Below are positions 3,329-60,929 of a stretch of 64,000 nt of DNA, one piece after another. This DNA comes from Deltaproteobacteria bacterium (GTDB lineage: Bacteria; Desulfobacterota; Binatia; UBA9968; JAJDTQ01), in assembly GCA_028818755.1 (NCBI GenBank), contig JAPPNF010000025.1, positions 1-64,000 of the forward strand, written 5' to 3'. How positions within the stretch are numbered: the first letter of the stretch is position 1; the number at the start of each line of letters is the position of its first letter. The position numbers and the translations under genes are program-made. The notes under the pieces were generated by a model. That model saw only the letters and a list, made by a program, of their open reading frames with translations, searched no databases and was not told the DNA's origin.

Positions 3329-4510
3329 TCAATTCCCCCGTTCGAGGCGCCAGACATCCACATGATCCAGGTCGACGCTATCCCGGCGGATCGTAAGCAG
3401 GTAGTCCGGACCGAACGCCGGAACGACGTGTTCCTCGCGGCGCGGCGGAGCGGGAACACTGCCGAGCAATCTGCCCTCGGTGTCGAACACCTCCCAGCGG
3501 TTGCCCGCCGCCCGCACGACTTCGACCCACAACTTGCCGTCCGGAGCGACGAAGAGGTCCTCGATGAACGGTCTCGCGTCCGGCCGGGCGGGGTTGCGTG
3601 GGTCGCATGACGCGTCGCTGCGGGTCTCTCGCCACTCGTAGTATTCCGCGTTCGCCGCCCTCCACTCGGCGGTGCTGAACGATTCGGCCGGCAGCGGGCG
3701 CTCGATCACCATGAGAACCTCCGCGCCGTCGTTCCGCGTGACGAAGATCCGGTAGGCGCTGTTGAGTGCCGAATACAGCACGCCGCCCGGCCCCGGATGC
3801 TGCAGGAACCGCGGAGCGAACGGAATCGGGAAGAACCTGATGCGATCCTCGAACTCGCACACGATCGCCGGACGACCGATCGGCGGCGCCCGCATCCATG
3901 CCACGGTATCGCCCGTCTCGCCGCGGCTGTCATGACCCACATAGAACCGCTGCAGATCGGGGCCGAGGAGGGCGAACTGGAACACCTCGTCCGGGCCGAC
4001 GCCGTACAGCCGGAGCCAGGCAGGGACGCCGGTGACGCCTGCCCGAGTGGTCCGTTGCCCCAGCCATTCGCCCTCTGCCGACCATTCGCCGATGCGCCCC
4101 AGGTCCGGATCGAAGGTCAGGAGCCGGTCCCCTGCCCACGCCACCGCATTGAGGCTGTTGAATTCGCCCGGGCCTTCACCCTCCCTGCCGAACGTGCGAT
4201 GGTGGGCGCCGTCGAGCCCGAACACTTTTACCTCATGGTTGAGGTCATCGGCCACGAAGAGTTCCTCGTTCGGCCCCAGTGCCAGGCTGCTCACGCGGCC
4301 GAATTCGTCGGGCGATCCCGTGTCGGTAAGGGTCTTCGGTCCGATCGAGACGACGAGTTCGAGGCGGGCCGGAGGAGGATCCGTGTTGGTGACGGGGATA
4401 ACGCCCTCGTAGTTGATGACGAAGTCGGCGGTGGGTGCGTCGTCGCGGGCGCACGCGGCGGCGAGAACGGGCATCGTGAGTGCGAGCCAGCGGAACGAGG
4501 CGTGGCGCAT
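3329..4510 (-). CDS. 6-bladed beta-propeller lipoprotein
   Basis: The protein has a short signal peptide ending in a lipobox-like AAAC, then NHL/propeller blades with the recurring GxGPGEF motif (REGEGPGEF) and blade segments such as [14 protein letters not shown] and [11 protein letters not shown]. The start at 4510 is preferred because a GGAG site lies 6 bases upstream and the signal peptide begins there; a longer frame reaches 4573. The likely location is the periplasm or outer membrane. No catalytic residues are visible and the ligand is unknown. It is divergent from the next propeller gene, with about 170 bases between the two starts, so regulation may be shared. Confidence 0.82.
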
Positions 4511-4683
4511 GCGGGACTCCGTTTCAACAGGCAAGACAAAGCAGCGGGCATTGGCAATGGCAATTCGCACCATGCTCTCGATACCCTTACGTCAATCCGA
4601 ATCGGGCAGTTTCCTGGGGGCCGGAGCGAGACAACGCCGAGAGGATCAACCGGAGTCGTAATGGGCATGAACGGGAGGGACGA

Positions 4684-5985
4684 ATGCACAGGTTTCTGAT
4701 CGCTGGGGCCGCGTTGTACCTTGCGGGCCTGCTCGGCGCGCCCGTCGCCGCCCAGGAGCTGGTCGAGTTGCCCGCGGAAGACCGCTCGCTCGACCCCGCT
4801 TTCGAGGAGGTGTTCCGGGTTGGTGGGATCGACGGGGAGCCCTGGGAGCAGTTCGGAAGGATCCACGATATCGCCTTCGATCGCGCCGGCAATCTGTACC
4901 TGCTCGACTTCGACGGGTTGGAGGTGGTGGTCGTCGACCGTGAGGGCAGCTTCGTGCGGACGATCGGGCGTTCCGGCGACGGTCCCGGCGAGTTCGATTT
5001 CCCGCGGTGGCTGGCGGTCATGGAGGACGGGCGCATCGTCGTGAGCGATGTCCCGCGGCACCGCGCGTTCCAGATCTACAACAGCGACGGCAGCTTCGAC
5101 CGGGGCGTGCGGGTGGGGAATGACCTGCTGGCGGTCGCGGACCGCATCCACGGTGGTCGCGATGGCGTTGTCCTCACGGGAGTCGGGCTGGCACGAATCG
5201 AGGAGACGATACCGGAGGACGAAAGGGACCCTCCCGGAAAGCGCCGTATCCTGCACGCTGCCCTGGACGGCGACGAAGTGGCCCTCGAGACGGTCTTCCA
5301 GGCCTGGAGCCTGCCGCCTGTCGGCGAACTCACGCTCCGCATCGGTGGGCGCGAGATACCCATGGGTGGTGTCACGCCTCCGCCGCGCACCTTCGGTCCA
5401 CCCCTGATCGTCGGCACCCTGCCCGAAGGGGGCTTGGCATTCTCGGATTCGTCGGCGTACGCGATCAAGATCCTGGACGCCAACGGCACGCTCGTCCGCA
5501 TCCTCTCGCGTCCCATGCATCCCGTCCCCGTGACCGACCGGATCGTGGAGGCCGAATTCGAGCGGCGGGTCGAGGAGGCGATCGCGGGATTCGAGGCCAG
5601 GGGGCACGGGAACCGCATGATCCAGAACGCCACTACGGGTGAGACGATGGTGGGATCGCTGGACCTGGACGAGAGAATGCGCGAAGGCGTCCGGTTGTCG
5701 ACACTGGCGCAATTGGAAGCGGTCCCGGTGGCTGACGAGGTCCCGGTGGTGCTGGATCTGCGCACGACCTGGGACGGACGAATCTGGGTGCAGCGGCGCG
5801 GCGAGGACCTCTTCAGCGACGGCCCCATCGATGTACTGAGCCCTGACGGCCGCTACCTGGGTAGCTATCCCGCCGGAACACCCATGCCGATGGCCTTCGG
5901 TCCAAGGGGACTGATGGCGACGCTGCAGACGGATGAACTGGGGATGCAGACGGTGGTCGTAAAGCGGGTGGGCGGGGGGCTGTAG
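4684..5985 (+). CDS. 6-bladed beta-propeller secreted protein
   Basis: A Sec signal peptide is present (hydrophobic core, cleavage near GAPVAAQE), with no lipobox cysteine, so the product is probably free in the periplasm or exported. Propeller blades follow, including [30 protein letters not shown] and [12 protein letters not shown]. The ATG at 4684 has a GGGAGGGA ribosome site just upstream; the frame is open further 5' but that part does not look coding. About 433 residues. It is paralogous to the neighbouring gene at 3329-4510 and to three other propellers in the window. A role in binding or sensing is inferred only. Confidence 0.83.
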
Positions 5986-6100: not shown

Positions 6101-7180
6101 TCAGCGTCGCCGCAACCATTGTGGAATCGTCTGAACCAGGACCTTGGGATAGGGATCGCGAACGAAACTGTAGAGCCGGTGGTGCGCAAATGCTGAAGCA
6201 ACTGCCTCCGATGGGATCGGAGACGACTGTTCGCCCGACCCCGAGTCGAGTACGTAGATATTGAGACGCCCCTCCAGGTCCTCCATTGATGATCCGTGTA
6301 TCGTGGCAACGATCTGTCCGGGTCCTCCACCTGACAAGTGCGAGAGCGTGTTGGCAACGCCAGTTGCTGAGTCTACTCCCATTGACAGGCCACCGCCAGG
6401 ATTTGGCGTCCACGTGACGGGGCTGAATCCGTTGATCGTTACCTCACGAATGAAGTCGCCTTGTGTAGAAAACCAGCGCACGATGCCCAGACGTTCGCTG
6501 GCAATCGCGAGGACATCCCCTCCTGCGCAGTGGACATGGCCCCGTCCATGACTGGAGGCAAAGAAAACTGCGAACCTCTCCAGGCCACGAGGAGGCAGCT
6601 GGCGCGGAAAACCTGGTCCAAACGACCGAATCACCTCGCCCTCCTCTGACAGGATGTAGACCTTGGGTGTGCCATCCGACACCTGGCCCAGCACAACGAG
6701 GCGACCGTCGATAACGCACATGTCGCTGCCGTAGACTGGAACCGGAAAGCTGCGAACGAACTCCAAGCCTTCATCGCCCAGCACGAACTCTGCGATCTTT
6801 CGGGAGGCTGCATCTAAAACGTAAACCTGACCCGCTGGGCTAACGGCCAAACCCGCGGCGGCTCGAAACTCGCCGGGGCCGCCACCCTGACGTCCGGTCG
6901 TGCCGCGAAAGCGCCCGTCCGGCCCAAACCAGGACAGACTGAAGCCCTGATCGTCAAGAATCAGGATGTTCCCATCCCCATCCACCTCGACATCGCGGAT
7001 GTTTCCGAATATCTGGTTCCGGTCTCCTGCAATGACCCCGATCTCCAACAGCAACGTGTCGCGCTGGAACTCTACGGAAACAGGTCCGCGGACGACTGGA
7101 CCGGTTAGTGGATCGCCACTGTTCCAACCCAACAAGTTCCCCAAAAGCAACGGAGCGACGCGAACGATTTGGGGTGTCAT
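6101..7180 (-). CDS. 6-bladed beta-propeller protein with divergent base composition
   Basis: About 359 residues with propeller blades: VEVDGDGNILILDDQG, RQGGGPGEFRAAAG and LAVSPAGQVYVLDAAS. The N-terminus is weakly hydrophobic and has no clear signal peptide or lipobox, unlike the other four propellers here. Its codons are visibly less GC-biased than those of flanking genes. It lies directly past the 3' end of the tRNA array, on the same strand as the tRNAs. Composition and position together suggest horizontal acquisition at a tRNA site, but no integrase is present. The start at 7180 is the first in frame and is uncertain. Confidence 0.7.
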   Translation of the reverse strand: MTPQIVRVAPLLLGNLLGWNSGDPLTGPVVRGPVSVEFQRDTLLLEIGVIAGDRNQIFGNIRDVEVDGDGNILILDDQGFSLSWFGPDGRFRGTTGRQGGGPGEFRAAAGLAVSPAGQVYVLDAASRKIAEFVLGDEGLEFVRSFPVPVYGSDMCVIDGRLVVLGQVSDGTPKVYILSEEGEVIRSFGPGFPRQLPPRGLERFAVFFASSHGRGHVHCAGGDVLAIASERLGIVRWFSTQGDFIREVTINGFSPVTWTPNPGGGLSMGVDSATGVANTLSHLSGGGPGQIVATIHGSSMEDLEGRLNIYVLDSGSGEQSSPIPSEAVASAFAHHRLYSFVRDPYPKVLVQTIPQWLRRR

Positions 7181-7346: not shown

Positions 7347-7430
7347 CGGACGGGGTGGGATTCGAACCCACGCGGGCTGACGCCCACACGATTTCCAGTC
7401 GTGCGCCTTAAGCCACTCGGCCACCCGTCC
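7347..7430 (-). tRNA. tRNA-Ser(GGA)
   Basis: The minus strand folds as a cloverleaf with acceptor GGACGGG/CCCGTCC, a long class II variable arm, T-loop TTCGAAT and anticodon loop CTGGAAA. CCA is not encoded. It is the last tRNA of the array in the direction of transcription. Confidence 0.92.
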
Positions 7431-7477
7431 TGTCGCGAAGAGCGGGGCCCTCCGACCCCGCTCCTCACGGTTGATAA

Positions 7478-7551
7478 TCGGGGCGCCCGGATTCGAACCG
7501 GGGACCTCTGCGACCCGAACGCAGCGCTCTACCGGACTGAGCCACGCCCCG
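7478..7551 (-). tRNA. tRNA-Pro(CGG)
   Basis: Acceptor CGGGGCG/CGCCCCG, with the C1-G72 pair usual for bacterial proline tRNA; anticodon loop TTCGGGT; discriminator A. Confidence 0.92.
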
Positions 7552-7569
7552 TTGTTGAGATTTGTTGAG

Positions 7570-7654
7570 CGGAGGCGGAGGGACTCGAACCCCCAAGTGC
7601 TCAACGCACGCCGCATTTCGAGTGCGGTGCCTTACCAATTAGGACTACGCCTCC
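7570..7654 (-). tRNA. tRNA-Ser(CGA)
   Basis: Class II tRNA with long variable arm, acceptor GGAGGCG/CGCCTCC, anticodon loop CTCGAAA and discriminator G. Confidence 0.92.
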
Positions 7655-7688
7655 CCAAGGGTCGTCGGAGCGAGTGTGCCGCACTTTG

Positions 7689-7803
7689 AGGGGGAGTGGG
7701 ATGGACCTGCGGGCGGCTTGGGCCGCTCCTCGGTAGTCTCCGGCGTTCGCGCCTCGCGGCGCGACCGCCTCCGGCTCGAACGAGTTCGAACCCCATTCCC
7801 TCC
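7689..7803. repeat. Structured tRNA-Ser-associated element, copy 2
   Basis: A 115-base unit just past the 3' end of tRNA-Ser(GCU). Bases 7692-7702 match 7824-7834, the acceptor/T-stem part of that tRNA, so each copy mimics its own neighbouring tRNA. Plus-strand ends GGGAGTGGG (7692-7700) and CCCATTCCC (7792-7800) pair completely if one G-U is allowed. The inner 7-bp hairpin is at 7747-7764. The core matches copy 1 at 7217-7330. Confidence 0.6.
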
Positions 7804-7819
7804 GATCGCTGACGCTCAG

Positions 7820-7904
7820 CGGAGGGAGTGGGATTCGAACCCACGTGGTCACTGGGACCAACGCCTTAGCAGGGCGCCGCTTTTAGCCGCTCAGCCATCC
7901 CTCC
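7820..7904 (-). tRNA. tRNA-Ser(GCU)
   Basis: Class II tRNA with acceptor GGAGGGA/TCCCTCC, long variable arm, anticodon loop CTGCTAA and discriminator G. Confidence 0.92.
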
Positions 7905-7907
7905 AAG

Positions 7908-7980
7908 TAGCCCCGCCTGGGATCGAACCAGGACTCTTCTGATCCAGAGTCAGACGTGTTGCCAATTACACCACGGGGCT
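7908..7980 (-). tRNA. tRNA-Gln(CUG)
   Basis: Acceptor AGCCCCG/CGGGGCT, anticodon stem TCTGA/TCAGA and loop CTCTGGA, giving anticodon CUG; discriminator A. It sits only three bases from tRNA-Ser(GCU). Confidence 0.9.
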
Positions 7981-8026
7981 ATGTGCCGCCTTCCTCACGG
8001 CCAACCCTGACGTTACGTCAGGCTAG

Positions 8027-8099
8027 AGCCACCGGTCGGACTCGAACCGACGACCCCGTCATTACGAGTGACGTGCTCTACCAGCTGAGCTACGGTGGC
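8027..8099 (-). tRNA. tRNA-Thr(CGU)
   Basis: Acceptor GCCACCG/CGGTGGC, anticodon stem CGTCA/TGACG, loop CTCGTAA and T-loop TTCGAGT. Confidence 0.92.
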
Positions 8100-8160
8100 G
8101 ATGTTTCCGGCGGGCGGCAAGCAGACGGCCCGACGGCCCGCCTCGTCGTCGCCTCGCCAG

Positions 8161-8233
8161 TGGAGCCGAGGGGAGTCGAACCCCTGACCTCAGCGTTGCG
8201 AACGCTGCGCTCTCCCAACTGAGCTACGGCCCC
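8161..8233 (-). tRNA. tRNA-Ala(CGC)
   Basis: Acceptor GGGGCCG/CGGCTCC contains the G3-U70 wobble that identifies alanine tRNAs. Anticodon loop TTCGCAA; discriminator A. Confidence 0.93.
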
Positions 8234-8264
8234 TTGCTCGCGCGGGATTCCCACGGCCTGCCAG

Positions 8265-8338
8265 TGGGCGCGACAGGACTTGAACCTGTGACCTCCACGA
8301 TGTCAACGTGGCACTCTAGCCAGCTGAGCTACGCGCCC
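8265..8338 (-). tRNA. tRNA-Val(GAC)
   Basis: Acceptor GGGCGCG/CGCGCCC, anticodon stem CCACG/CGTGG, loop TTGACAT and T-loop TTCAAGT. Confidence 0.92.
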
Positions 8339-8346
8339 TGCACCAA

Positions 8347-8420
8347 TACGCCCGGGAGGACTCGAACCCCCAACCCCCTGATCCGTAGTCAGGTACTCTA
8401 TCCAATTGAGCTACGGGCGC
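8347..8420 (-). tRNA. tRNA-Arg(ACG)
   Basis: Acceptor GCGCCCG/CGGGCGT (G1-U72 wobble), anticodon stem CCTGA/TCAGG and loop CTACGGA. A34 would need TadA deamination to inosine to read CGN codons. Confidence 0.92.
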
Positions 8421-8447
8421 TCCGCGAGACGAGGCTCGCCGCTGCAG

Positions 8448-8531
8448 TGCCCACGACAGGACTCGAACCTGTACGTCCTTTCGAACACTGGTCCCTCAAA
8501 CCAGCCTGTCTACCAATTCCAGCACGTGGGC
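8448..8531 (-). tRNA. tRNA-Leu(GAG)
   Basis: Class II tRNA with acceptor GCCCACG/CGTGGGC, long variable arm, anticodon loop TTGAGGG and discriminator A. Confidence 0.92.
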
Positions 8532-8621
8532 ATCCCCACCGGTCCGCGGCACGGCCGCCGCCCGCACACTCGGGGAGGCCACCGCGCCACGTTCCCGGCC
8601 TGAACTGCCAGGCCAGGCCAA

Positions 8622-8706
8622 TGCTCGGGGAGGGACTCGAACCCTCACGGGGTTAACCCCCACAGGATCCTGAATCCTGCGCGTCTACCAATTCCGCCAC
8701 CCGAGC
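8622..8706 (-). tRNA. tRNA-Leu(CAG)
   Basis: Class II tRNA with acceptor GCTCGGG/CCCGAGC, long variable arm, anticodon loop TTCAGGA and discriminator A. Confidence 0.92.
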
Positions 8707-8730
8707 CTTTCGGCACATCGATTCGGTGAA

Positions 8731-8803
8731 TGGAGCCGAGGGGAGTCGAACCCCTGACCTCCTGAATGCCATTCAGGCGCTCTCCCAACTGAGCTACGGC
8801 CCC
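8731..8803 (-). tRNA. tRNA-Ala(GGC)
   Basis: Acceptor with G3-U70, anticodon loop ATGGCAT. The acceptor and T-arm are identical to those of tRNA-Ala(CGC) in the same array, so the two probably arose by duplication. Confidence 0.93.
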
Positions 8804-8842
8804 AAACCCGCTCCACGACCCAGATTTTCAAAAAACCACCAG

Positions 8843-8917
8843 CGGGGCTGACGGGACTCGAACCCGCGGCCTCCGGTGTGACAGACCGGCACTCTAACCA
8901 AACTGAGCTACAGCCCC
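8843..8917 (-). tRNA. tRNA-Asp(GUC)
   Basis: Acceptor GGGGCTG/CAGCCCC, anticodon stem CCGGT/ACCGG, loop CTGTCAC and discriminator G. Confidence 0.92.
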
Positions 8918-8954
8918 ATTTTTCCACTGCGGCCGGCAGCCCGCGCCGGCCCAA

Positions 8955-9026
8955 TACCCTCACGGGGAATCGAACCCCGATCTCCACCTTGAAAGAGTGG
9001 TGTCCTAACCGTTAGACGATGAGGGC
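8955..9026 (-). tRNA. tRNA-Glu(UUC)
   Basis: Acceptor GCCCTCA/TGAGGGT (G1-U72), anticodon loop CTTTCAA and the typical glutamate D-arm start TCGTCTAA. Confidence 0.9.
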
Positions 9027-9041
9027 GAACCTCCGTCGCTA

Positions 9042-9115
9042 CAGGCCCGGAGGGACTCGAACCCCCAACCGCCGGTTTTGGAGACCGGTGCTCTACCAAA
9101 TTGAGCTACGGACCT
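9042..9115 (-). tRNA. tRNA-Trp(CCA)
   Basis: Acceptor AGGTCCG/CGGGCCT, anticodon stem CCGGT/ACCGG, loop CTCCAAA and discriminator G. Confidence 0.92.
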
Positions 9116-9126
9116 AGCGCTGTCGA

Positions 9127-9199
9127 TGGCCAGGGGCGGAATCGAACCGCCGACACCGCGATTTTCAGTCGCGTGCTCTACCAACTGAGCTACCTGGCC
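9127..9199 (-). tRNA. tRNA-Phe(GAA)
   Basis: Acceptor GGCCAGG/CCTGGCC, anticodon stem CGCGA/TCGCG, loop CTGAAAA and discriminator A. Confidence 0.93.
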
Positions 9200-9220
9200 G
9201 AAGCCCGACATCGCTCCGAC

Positions 9221-9269
9221 AAAAACCGACCGGACCCTGCCGGCGGGTTCGCCTTGAACCACCGGTCGG
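9221..9269 (-). terminator. Hairpin plus T-run between tRNA-fMet and tRNA-Phe
   Basis: On the minus strand CCGACCGG (9269-9262) pairs with CCGGTCGG (9233-9226) and is followed by TTTTTG. A smaller hairpin, GGTTC/GAACC, sits in the loop. This looks like a rho-independent terminator or attenuator after tRNA-fMet. The rest of the 9200-9358 gap has another 8-bp GC hairpin at 9313-9334 but no gene. Confidence 0.5.
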
Positions 9270-9358
9270 CCTGGCCGATCCAAGTCCCGGTACCCCGGGC
9301 CGCTACGCCAGAAACGCCGCACTGAGGCGGCGTTCCCGGAAGCACTCCGTCGCAATTA

Positions 9359-9432
<74 letters not shown>

Positions 9433-50239: not shown

Positions 50240-51412
50240 GTGAACTGGACGCTCAATCCCGACGCGGCCCCGCCCATGCCCTACCCGGCCGCGCTACAAA
50301 GGATCATCGGCGGCGACGCCCATCGCGAGGCCCGCGCCGAGATCTCGGCCTGGCCGGGGTATGCCCCTACCCCCCTTCGAAACGCGCGGGCGCTGGCGTC
50401 AAGTCTCGGAGTCGAGTCCGTGTGGGTGAAGGATGAGAGCGGCCGTTTCGGCCTGGGCAGCTTCAAGGCGCTGGGCGGGGCGTACGGAATCCGGCGGGTG
50501 ATGGAGGCTCGAGCGAGGCGCGCGGCTTCCTCCGCCGGGAACCGTGGCGAGGGCCGTCCGGCCACCCAGACCGTCACCTGCGCTTCCGACGGGAACCACG
50601 GGCGCGCCGTCGCGTGGGGCGCGCGCATGTTCGGTTGCGACGCCGTCGTGTACCTGCCCGTGCACGTTACGGAGGTCCGCGCCGGCGCGATCCGGTCGTT
50701 CGGCGCCCGGGTCGTCCGGGTGGACGGCGAGTACGACGACGCGGTCGCCCAGGCGGCACGCGACGCCGCGCGGAACGGGTGGACCGTGATCTCGGACACC
50801 TCGTATCCGGGGTATATGGAGATTCCGCGTCATGTCATGGTGGGATATACGATCATGGCTAATGAGGCATTGGATGCATTACTGCCCATGGCGGATATGC
50901 ATCGGAATATGTTTGGTCATCCCACCCATGTCTTCATCCAGGGTGGGGTCGGCGGGTTGGCGGCCGCGGCGATCGGGCACGCATGGGAGCGTCTGGGCGC
51001 GGATCGTCCCGTGGCGGTGATCGTCGAGCCGGACGCCGCCGACGGCCTCCTTCAGAGTGCGCTCGCGGGGAAGCCGAGCGCGAGCCGCGGCGACCTGCAC
51101 ACGATCATGGCGGGGCTGAGCTGCCGGGAGATCTCGCCGCTCGCGTGGGAGATCGTCGGCAAGGGGGCCCACGCGTTCATGACCGTGCCGGAAGACGGAA
51201 TCGCGCCGCTCATGCGCGCCGCCGCACGGGGCGAACTGGGGGAGCCGTTCGAGGGCGGGGAGTCGGGGGTGGCGGGGCTGCTGGGCCTGATCGAGGTCGC
51301 GCGGGATGAGGAGCGGCGCCGGGCGATCGGGCTCGATGAGGGCTCGCGCGTTCTCGTGTTTAACACCGAGGGCGCGACCGACCCGGAACTGTACGCGCGG
51401 ATCGTGGATTGA
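50240..51412 (+). CDS. Diaminopropionate ammonia-lyase-like PLP enzyme
   Basis: 390 residues, fold type II. PLP lysine in [14 protein letters not shown], phosphate and substrate loops [35 protein letters not shown] and [17 protein letters not shown]; the motif [13 protein letters not shown] is typical of this family. It breaks 2,3-diaminopropionate (or D-serine in some members) to pyruvate and ammonia. GTG start at 50240, 22 bases from the divergent msrA start, so the two promoters must overlap coding DNA. Confidence 0.88.
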
Positions 51413-51567
51413 GGGCGGGCTGGGATGGGGTGGCGGGACGTGACGGGCGCCGGGCAGCTGGCGACGCGCCCGGGTTTCCCCGGCCAAGCGGCCCGGATAC
51501 CTTTCCGACCGTTCGCCCGACAACTCGCAGAGGGGGCGACGCCCATCGTCAGGACGAGGTGTCCACC

Positions 51568-52035
51568 ATGAAACAACAACCCTTCTATACCGCACGCGCC
51601 AGCGTCGCCAAGGTGGACGGCATCCATCGGCGCGCGACCCTGGAAGACGGCACCGAGGTCGACTTCGGCGTTCACGGGCCGATCAAGGCCCACTACCGCC
51701 TCAATGAGGAGCCCGACCGTCCCCTGCCGGTCGATTATCTCGTCGCGGCGGCGGCCGGCTGACTGCTCGGGACGCTCAACGGCGCACTGGAGGTGCGCGG
51801 GATCCCGATGGCCAACGACGCGATCAGCGTGCGGGCCGAAGGCGTCAACGAAGTGGTGGACAGGATGGTGGTGCTCACCAAGATCCATGCACACTACACG
51901 ATCCGGCTGCCCGCGGGCGCCGCGCGCGACAAGGTGGACCGCGCGCTGGACACGCATGTTGCGAAGTGCCCGACGGCTCGCAGTCTGGAGGCCGCGGTCG
52001 AGGTGAGCTGGTCGGCGGATGTAACGGAGGCGTAG
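51568..52035 (+). CDS. OsmC-family selenoprotein, UGA = Sec at residue 65
   Basis: The ATG at 51568 starts a frame with in-frame TGA at 51760-51762 and continues to TAG at 52033-52035 (155 residues). The interrupted helix reads VDYLVAAAAG-(UGA)-LLGTLNGALEVRG; in OsmC/YhfA proteins this is the catalytic cysteine of the ASCL motif. The second conserved cysteine is intact in THVAKCPTARSLEAAVEV, giving a Sec-Cys pair for thiol-peroxide or disulfide chemistry. A perfect 6-bp hairpin follows at 51782-51798. OsmC-like selenoproteins have been described from marine metagenomes. The half after UGA has an internal ATG but no ribosome site and lacks the first half of the fold. Confidence 0.85.
51782..51798 (+). 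promoter_or_regulatory. Candidate bacterial SECIS hairpin in osmC-like gene
   Basis: GCGCAC (51782-51787) pairs with GTGCGC (51793-51798) around loop TGGAG. The loop begins 25 bases after the TGA and has G as second base. Distance, stem length and loop fit the bSECIS model better than the hairpin in the Prx gene. Confidence 0.65.
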
Positions 52036-52086: not shown

Positions 52087-53307
52087 TCAGGTGCCCGGCG
52101 CGAACCGAACCCGGGCCACCCGCTGCACGCCGAGCGAGTCCGTGGTGACACCGTAGAGCATCGAATCCGTGGCCCAGGGGGTCGGGTATTTCTGGATACG
52201 GCGGGGCCACCGGTAGCGGGCGACGAGTTCCGTACCGGCCCAGACATCGGCCTCGCGGGTTTCGTCCCCGTCGGCGGCTGACTTTTCGACCCACAGCCGA
52301 CCGGCGGCGTCGAAGAACATGCCTTCGAGCGGCGGCTTGCGGTCCGGAATCCCGAACGGATGATCGTCGAGGTCGGAGTTGTCGAGATCGCGCTGGATTC
52401 TGGACTCCGCGGTAGTCCGTTCGTCCGGGCTCAACACCGGCCCCTCGAACGACGGACCCTCGACCAGCGAAGCGGTCCCGTCCGGATGGTGATAGTTGAT
52501 CGAGTATGCCGACGTAATGGCCTCCGCCCAGGCGCCCCCATCGGCGTGCGCGTGGATCCAGGTCGGGCCAAACCAATGGTGGAGGTAGCTGATGCCGCGG
52601 ATACTGCGACCCTCCAATTCGCGCTCGAATTCGGTCGTGGCCTGACCCGTGTACTGGCGCTCTCCGTCGCCGAGGAGGACGGTGTCCACCGCGCCGTCGG
52701 GGTTCACAAGGAGGCGGGCAGTGAGGCCGCGGAACCGCGCGGTCAGGTTCGTGGCGTCCCGACTCGTCACCGGCCCGACATTGACCAGGTTGCCGTCCGC
52801 GTCGAAGGTGAAGGGATCGCGCGAGCCGATGCCCGGTTGGAGGGTTCTCATGCCTCTCAGGTATTCGGCGCTCGCCGATTCCAGCGCGAACACGCTGTAA
52901 CGGGAGCCCTCGCGCACCCACAGTTCGCCGTCCGGCCCGATGGCCAGACAACAGATGTCGGAGAGTTCGCCTGGGCCCTCGCCATACCCCCCGGCTCGGA
53001 ACGCGAAGCGGCCGTCGAATTCGAAGACGCGGATTTCGCTGGTCCGTGCGTCAGCTACGATTATTCGGCCCTGCGCGTCTTCGGCAATCGACGCGATCCT
53101 GGTGAACAGGTACGGGTCGTCGCCGTCCATCTCGCCGATTTCGAGATCGATCGAGCCCTCGAAGGTGGGGACTTCGGGAAAGACGCGGGCGGGTTGTTCG
53201 TCCTCGGCGCAGCCGAGAGCCAGAAGGGCCAGTGCGGCGACGGCGGGTGCCGCCACGGTTGAACGATGGGCGGCCCGCGGCCGATCGAATGCCGCTAGTG
53301 TGTCCAC
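52087..53307 (-). CDS. 6-bladed beta-propeller lipoprotein
   Basis: About 406 residues. Signal peptide with lipobox LLALGCAED, then propeller blades: IASIAEDAQGRIIVADART, GGYGEGPGELSDICCLAIG, GPDGELWVREG and MFFDAAGRLWVEKS. GTG start at 53307 places the signal peptide normally; the frame is open to a TTG at 53343. The gene is flanked by the 34-base direct repeat of the osmC end, hinting that it was inserted or duplicated as a cassette. Confidence 0.82.
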   Translation of the reverse strand: MDTLAAFDRPRAAHRSTVAAPAVAALALLALGCAEDEQPARVFPEVPTFEGSIDLEIGEMDGDDPYLFTRIASIAEDAQGRIIVADARTSEIRVFEFDGRFAFRAGGYGEGPGELSDICCLAIGPDGELWVREGSRYSVFALESASAEYLRGMRTLQPGIGSRDPFTFDADGNLVNVGPVTSRDATNLTARFRGLTARLLVNPDGAVDTVLLGDGERQYTGQATTEFERELEGRSIRGISYLHHWFGPTWIHAHADGGAWAEAITSAYSINYHHPDGTASLVEGPSFEGPVLSPDERTTAESRIQRDLDNSDLDDHPFGIPDRKPPLEGMFFDAAGRLWVEKSAADGDETREADVWAGTELVARYRWPRRIQKYPTPWATDSMLYGVTTDSLGVQRVARVRFAPGT

Positions 53308-53405
53308 GTGTTGTTGCTCCCAGCTTCGGTATGTGGTGATCAACCTCCCACATACACAATCGTAGCGCTTCGGGTCAGCCAGTGAAGGTACCCGGATGCC
53401 ACCTC

Positions 53406-59696: not shown

Positions 59697-60929
59697 CTAC
59701 ATGCCCTGCGGTTGCAGCGAAACCAGCCGGATCACGCGAACGGTCGGTATGCCCACCTCGTCCGCCTCGACGTAGGCCATGAGTCCGTTTGGTCCGAAGG
59801 CGCTCGGGATCCTGACTCCGTTGGCGGGCAGCGTTCCCACGTAGCCCCCTTCCGGGGTCACGATGTCGATGGGTCCGGGTTCGACGCCATCCGCCCCGGT
59901 TCGCTCGACCCAGATTCGATCCTCCCAGTCCACGGCCATGTTGGCGATGACTGGGACCTCGTCCGCGAACCGCAGCTCGTCTACACTCTCCCGCTCGATG
60001 CGGAAAATGCCCACGTTGCTCGGAACTTCGCGGGCGCGATAGCGGTCCCGCGCGGCTTCCTTCATGGCTTCGGTGACCGCGAGGGGCGCGACCGGGCGCT
60101 CTACGGTGCCGACCACGCTGCCATCACGCGCGACCAGTTTGACCCGGTATCCGATCGAGTCGACCACCGCAAGGCGGCCGTCGGAGGTCACGTCGAAGTG
60201 AAGGCGCGGCTCGAAGGAGCGGCCCGCGGACATCCTGGAAACGCCATCGGAGGAGGAGGAGCGCCTGGCATTCCTCCTCTCATCCTCTGGATCGGGCAGC
60301 TCCCAGGCGGTGTAGAGGACTTCCGGCTTGCCGTGCTCGATGGGGAAGATTTCGATGGGTCGGCCGGGGGGCTCCAGTTGCTCCAAGCCTTCGCGAAACC
60401 TCTCGATATCGAACCGGAAGACGGTCGACACCAGACTTCCGTCGGGCAATGCCCTGGCATTCCAGATCGGGCTACCGGTCGCAACGCTCATCGGCATCCT
60501 GCGCAGCTGTTCCCCGTCGGAGCCGAGGACATCAATACCGCGCACGCTACCAACCACGTACCCGCCGTCTCGATATACGTGGAGCGTAAAAGGCGACTGC
60601 AATTCCCCGGGTCCCTCGCCCGATCCTCCCACAAAGCGCACAAAGGTCCCGTTCGGGTCCAACACCACGATTCGGTCCTCCTGCCTATCGAGAATGTGCG
60701 CGTTGCCCGCACCGTCGAATGCAACGCCCGCGATCGAACCGAAGCTCTCCCAGTCCTCCCCCATGTACGCGCCGACCGTGTAGACGTGCTCGGTCGCCGC
60801 GGCCAGCATGACGTCCGGGCCCTCCAGGGTGCCGGGTGGACCACCGTCGCCGGGACCGGGCGCCGAGTCGCCGCACCCGAGGGCGGCAGCCGCTGCTGTC
60901 GTGATCAGGATCGGGGCTTTCGTCCGCAC
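59697..60929 (-). CDS. 6-bladed beta-propeller lipoprotein
   Basis: 410 residues. Lipobox AAALGCGD and a glycine-proline linker, then blades SIAGVAFDGAGNAHILDRQ, GGSGEGPGELQSPFTL, FDVTSDGRLAVVDS and NMAVDWEDRIWVERTG. GTG start at 60929 with GAGGAG 7 bases upstream. Nearest in layout to the propellers at 4684 and 52087. Confidence 0.83.
   Translation of the reverse strand: MRTKAPILITTAAAAALGCGDSAPGPGDGGPPGTLEGPDVMLAAATEHVYTVGAYMGEDWESFGSIAGVAFDGAGNAHILDRQEDRIVVLDPNGTFVRFVGGSGEGPGELQSPFTLHVYRDGGYVVGSVRGIDVLGSDGEQLRRMPMSVATGSPIWNARALPDGSLVSTVFRFDIERFREGLEQLEPPGRPIEIFPIEHGKPEVLYTAWELPDPEDERRNARRSSSSDGVSRMSAGRSFEPRLHFDVTSDGRLAVVDSIGYRVKLVARDGSVVGTVERPVAPLAVTEAMKEAARDRYRAREVPSNVGIFRIERESVDELRFADEVPVIANMAVDWEDRIWVERTGADGVEPGPIDIVTPEGGYVGTLPANGVRIPSAFGPNGLMAYVEADEVGIPTVRVIRLVSLQPQGM

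Follow-up and report, generated by a model that had tools for sequence, protein, structure and literature searches.

An OsmC gene with an in-frame UGA

The window analysed here, a stretch of 64,000 nucleotides, carries a gene of the OsmC family whose reading frame is crossed by a TGA codon. The features of this locus are as follows.

51556-51559, plus strand: GAGG, a plausible ribosome-binding site by position only, 8 nt 5' of the ATG
51568-52035, plus strand: predicted OsmC-family selenoprotein gene, with ATG start, TAG stop (52033-52035), 155 residues and UGA as Sec codon 65
51760-51762, plus strand: in-frame TGA (predicted Sec65) at the site of the first catalytic Cys of OsmC, placed by alignment and homologues
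51782-51798, plus strand: putative SECIS hairpin, stem 51782-51787 / 51793-51798, loop UGGAG 51788-51792
51967-51969, plus strand: Cys134 codon (within KCP), for the second redox residue, which does not vary in the alignments

The read-through product matches the OsmC profile PF02566 with 53.3 bits (cut-off 27.5; E = 3.9e-14) over residues 50-148. Aligned to Thermus OsmC (PDB 1ukk), U65 falls on the first catalytic cysteine and C134 on the second, which confirms both assignments made in an initial sequence-only reading of this DNA; Cys134 is invariant across the family alignments. Val55 is aligned to the canonical OsmC/Ohr Glu of 1ukk, ten residues before the cysteine, and Asp56, at -9 relative to Sec65, is likewise invariant. 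An AlphaFold2 model with 27 family sequences as input reached a mean pLDDT of 86, and its top Foldseek matches in the PDB were E. coli OsmC (1qwi; 9e-8), Thermus OsmC (1ukk), and 1ml8. The high rmsd of these matches at full coverage may reflect the comparison of single chains of a swapped dimer. Hence, by profile, fold, and both redox positions, the protein is a member of the OsmC superfamily (PF02566).

A diaminopropionate ammonia-lyase gene (50240-51412, plus strand) lies directly 5' of the OsmC gene on the same strand. We found no neighbouring gene that is conserved alongside OsmC in the relatives; the largest neighbour cluster, a sensor-kinase family, comprises 11 loci and is mostly non-adjacent to the OsmC gene. 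Elsewhere in the window, 17 tRNA genes, no two of which share an anticodon, are clustered within 2.1 kb of one strand (7347-9432, minus). There are weak matches to a 6-bladed beta-propeller (PF17170) at 3329-4573 and 52087-53343 (both minus), and NHL-like matches at 4480-5985 (plus), 6101-7180 (minus), and 59697-60929 (minus), several such matches within one 64 kb stretch. An AhpC/TSA protein (PF00578; 2656-3309, plus) has a TGA at 2905-2907 within the motif GRW-U-PYC; Prx-like UxxC selenoproteins are a known kind. This second predicted selenoprotein gene had been recognised in the sequence-only reading, and was taken there to make error unlikely in both cases, an argument that is reasonable but not decisive.

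Conservation of the UGA among relatives

To find relatives, we searched two phylum draws, 395 genomes of Desulfobacterota (the phylum of the MAG that contains the window) and 396 of Acidobacteriota, at E < 1e-10 with the site covered. These draws yielded 66 further relatives, 26-61% identical, and all 66 have a single in-frame TGA. Besides the window gene, the Desulfobacterota draw gave 35 relatives, each with exactly one internal stop, a TGA, and the Acidobacteriota draw gave 31, all with one TGA, five of which are 55-61% identical to the window protein. The TGA codon position was identical in the fetched loci that were read out.

A species-wide scan, with one genome per species and 84,980 species in total, returned 80 loci: 74 with UGA, five with TGC (Cys), and one unparsed. 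Of the two scan patterns, one included Cys and the second was neutral, so the count of 74 versus 5 is not biased toward the Sec form. The record titles include Acidobacteria (Blastocatellia, Terriglobia), Deltaproteobacteria/Desulfobacterales, Methylomirabilota, Actinobacteria/Thermoleophilia, and Nitrospiraceae. Two OsmC selenoproteins (L058 and L059) are nearly identical although their records are titled Acidobacteria and Opitutaceae, respectively, most likely owing to a mis-binned contig. Plasmids held no match.

If the gene were decaying, the UGA would be a true stop and only a 64-residue N-terminal piece would be made. UGA does act as an ordinary stop nearby, for example at the end of the upstream diaminopropionate ammonia-lyase gene. 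However, the reading frame stays open through the 3' half, which is almost as well conserved as the 5' half (versus the five nearest orthologues, the N half is 62-70% identical and the C half 48-60%), and the TGA in 66 of 66 homologues and the invariant Cys134 both argue against decay. Relatives with a broken 3' half, which the sequence-only reading had named as grounds for abandoning its proposal, were looked for and none was found. We consider decay to be very improbable.

A hairpin downstream of the UGA

The window hairpin, GCGCAC-UGGAG-GUGCGC, has a folding energy of -9.7 kcal/mol. It had been placed 25 bases downstream of the TGA; this holds for the loop, which begins ~26 nt after the UGA, but not for the stem, which starts 20 nt after it. 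The hairpin conforms to the description of a bacterial SECIS, i.e., a hairpin 16-37 nt after the UGA with a G early in the loop. By itself, it is not significantly stable compared with dinucleotide shuffles (z = +0.70; the DNA is 67% GC), and synonymous shuffling of the gene equals it in 114 of 2000 cases (5.7%). The window hairpin alone is weak evidence, and it is the family comparison that lifts it above chance.

For this comparison, we folded sliding windows of codon-aligned genes to a consensus. In the Desulfobacterota type (84 genes), a 7-bp stem with a 6-nt loop lies just after the UGA at -10.98 kcal/mol, and the consensus energy is zero or near zero in nearly all other sliding windows of this alignment. 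In the window/Acidobacteriota type (28 genes), the sole consensus structure is GCGCAC-UGGAR-GUGCGC at -10.93 kcal/mol. We preferred sliding windows on the real alignment to a consensus-fold null that redraws the codons of each sequence, which is unfair to relatedness and was set aside. Consensus folding also supersedes the family-wide mean folding-energy z versus synonymous shuffles, which was only -0.91. The bSECIS rules (PMC13188914) are satisfied by 107 of 113 distinct Sec genes versus 17.6% of synonymous shuffles, a null that does not preserve relatedness.

In the 84-gene set, stem codons are frozen (Ala GCC in 78 of 84 and 75 of 82 genes, Leu CTG in 68 of 80), whereas conserved Ala outside the stem is GCC in just 33-57%. 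The outer stem pair of Desulfobacterota-type genes alternates between C-G (58) and U-A (14). In the window type, pair 24/32 occurs as 12 A-U, 15 G-C, and 1 G-U, and pair 23/33 changes from C-G to U-A. These counts come from related sequences, and a phylogeny-controlled, tree-based test of pair 24/32 comprises 1-3 independent pairs only and has no power; the covariation is supportive, not formal proof. In the Desulfobacterota type the loop starts ~19-20 nt after the UGA, whereas the Acidobacteriota/window type has its loop start at ~26 nt, so the hairpin has shifted relative to a fixed Sec codon.

Sec machinery and the origin of the contig

SelB, scored above the curated cut-off, is present in 40 of 43 Sec-form genomes of a first set and 24 of 27 of a second (64 of 70), compared with one of five Cys-form genomes; the Fisher p value of 0.0008 is nominal, given the relatedness of the genomes and the draft state of many of them.

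The MAG itself contains SelB and tRNA-Sec. However, the window LigA is only ~46% identical to the LigA of every genome in the MAG's genus, whereas a second LigA, on MAG contig C1, is 85.5% identical to a genus member. Judging from this divergence, the contig that carries the window is contamination in the MAG. SelB of the MAG matches its genus at 90-100% identity and, given the foreign LigA of the window, belongs to the MAG's main organism. Neither the SelB nor the tRNA-Sec of the MAG can therefore be credited to the window organism, and we withdrew this machinery as support for the window gene. Contamination also accounts for the lack of OsmC orthologues in 34 other genomes of the MAG's own order.

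As to where the contig came from, the window LigA is nearest to some Acidobacteriota (up to 58%), and the window OsmC groups with Acidobacteriota in the tree with support of 100/99. Within the phyla compared, an origin in Acidobacteriota is probable only. No rRNA for placing the contig (C134) is found on its remaining 38 kb. Another contig of the MAG, C141, is an apparent reverse copy of most of C134: the two are identical over the 3.3 kb compared, and their LigA and OsmC positions are collinear. They appear to be redundant contaminant contigs within the MAG.

A UGA decoded as another residue, through a Trp or Gly code or through read-through without selenium, would be compatible with the sequence of a single organism, but is hardly credible here: UGA serves as a stop on the same contig, the homologous OsmC residue is Cys, neither Trp nor Gly, and both the SECIS hairpin and the association with SelB speak for selenium. 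Insertion of Sec in the window organism is almost certain.

Cysteine forms and the direction of change

A maximum-likelihood tree, whose rooting depends on long outgroup branches, places all five Cys forms in one clade (100/100) nested in Acidobacteriota Sec forms. The fork of this clade with L160 is weak (86/48), and the wider group has support of 94/94. None of the five Cys forms retains the full 7-pair stem, one pair being lost in each, whereas the stem is intact in 26 of the 30 Sec forms that share their type. These patterns fit a single replacement of Sec by Cys. A SelB-poor Cys clade that is nested inside the Sec forms, and whose members each lack one stem pair, offers a testable case of such a replacement. 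The central claim of the sequence-only reading, Sec at the first OsmC cysteine, is strongly supported by the conserved UGA and SECIS, flanking conservation, the nested Cys clade, and the co-occurrence of SelB.

Relation to the described OsmC-like selenoproteins

OsmC-like selenoproteins with a UxxT motif were reported in 2005 (Zhang and others, PMC1088965), and an inventory from 2026 that covers 119 prokaryotic families and subfamilies has a single OsmC entry, UxxT (PMC13188914). The window gene might be one more member of this described family and nothing new: it has the same fold, with Sec in place of the same Cys, and a weak match (30.4 bits) to NF041052, the NCBIfam model of the UxxT family. 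That score is nevertheless far under the cut-off of 95, and relatives of the window protein score 28.7, 18.6, or have no match, whereas NF041052-type OsmC genes in the MAG reach 186 and 132 bits. The redox motif is U-x-x-G-T (ULLGT in the window protein; relatives have U[ML]xGT) rather than UxxT, and in the tree very long branches separate the UxxGT group from the NF041052-type group. We therefore regard membership in the described family as improbable. The models of OsmC/Ohr peroxidase subfamilies do not claim the window protein either (TIGR03562, 19.7 bits, cut-off 85.8; TIGR03563, 22.3 bits, cut-off 166.15).

The MAG has three further OsmC genes. Two of them (L002 on contig C2 and L005 on the minus strand of C124) belong to the NF041052 family and carry a single TGA in frame where the first Cys would be (GFULLTQ and GFUMLSQ, respectively), and the third, in L001, has a Cys at that site.

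Taken as a whole, the sequence comparisons indicate that the window gene very probably encodes a selenoprotein of a distinct, mostly-Sec OsmC subfamily, an assessment that excludes the substrate. The fuller reading is, on balance, probable: an unrecognised OsmC subfamily with Sec by descent across at least five phyla, a derived Cys in one Terriglobia clade, and a SECIS in two registers. The UxxGT branch is absent from the 2026 inventory; RefSeq and subscription papers were outside our search, and we claim no absolute priority. OsmC selenoproteins as a kind have been known since 2005, and by the tests made the UxxGT branch is outside the described family.

Most selenoprotein families have few Sec members amid many Cys members (PMC1794560), and deep-Sep retains candidates with a known Sec homologue or Cys homologues (PMC12013277). 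Prediction tools that lean on Cys homologues could miss an almost all-Sec OsmC branch, and standard gene callers would truncate the window OsmC at residue 64. This little-noticed branch of OsmC is present in at least five bacterial phyla, with predicted Sec in nearly all of its members.

Proposed mechanism

We built a mechanism on the computed frame, family, fold, and redox positions and on the computed conservation of the UGA and SECIS. SelB with Sec-tRNA would bind the hairpin at 51782-51798, and the UGA at 51760 would be decoded as Sec65. The product would be an OsmC-type protein, a swapped dimer by homology, in which the selenolate of Sec65 would attack a peroxide-type substrate. Cys134 would then resolve Sec65 as a selenenyl-sulfide, to be recycled by a cellular dithiol system. 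Sec65 and Cys134 are likely to be a redox pair, through which the protein would act as a selenol peroxidase or reductase. OsmC/Ohr proteins are reductases of organic peroxides in which an intramolecular disulfide forms, and lipoylated proteins serve to recycle them (PMC8945050). An organic hydroperoxide as substrate is an evenly balanced proposal for the window protein, and a lipoyl-type reductant, by analogy, is a tentative one. Since the canonical Glu is replaced by Val55, peroxidase activity is not assured.

The protein could instead be a selenoprotein of this same OsmC branch with a function other than peroxide reduction, e.g., per- or polysulfide or other thiol redox chemistry, as a YhfA-like protein. 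In favour of this, the catalytic Glu is missing, as it is from YhfA, a protein of unknown role (PMC8945050), and by record title many hosts belong to lineages known to be anaerobic. On the other hand, both redox positions are kept as in OsmC/Ohr peroxidases, and selenium is often employed in peroxide chemistry. We hold a non-peroxide function to be a real possibility, if the less favoured one.

Comparison with known systems

One close known system is the NF041052 family of OsmC-like selenoproteins, which shares the OsmC domain, Sec for the first catalytic Cys, and a bacterial SECIS downstream. It has UxxT where the window branch has UxxGT, and profile scores set the latter apart as a separate subfamily. 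With the OsmC/Ohr organic hydroperoxide reductases (TIGR03562, TIGR03561; PDB 1qwi, 1n2f), the window branch shares the fold and two redox positions, but differs from them in having Sec for the peroxidatic Cys, Val for the Glu at -10, and scores below the cut-offs. The YhfA family (COG1765) has the same fold as the window protein and, like it, no canonical Glu (PMC8945050 for YhfA); unlike YhfA, the window branch is a Sec form with a conserved G-V-H-G motif and the invariant Asp56. Lastly, GrdA and FdhA (PMC1794560), although unrelated proteins, resemble the window branch in that the Sec form is dominant and the Cys form rare.
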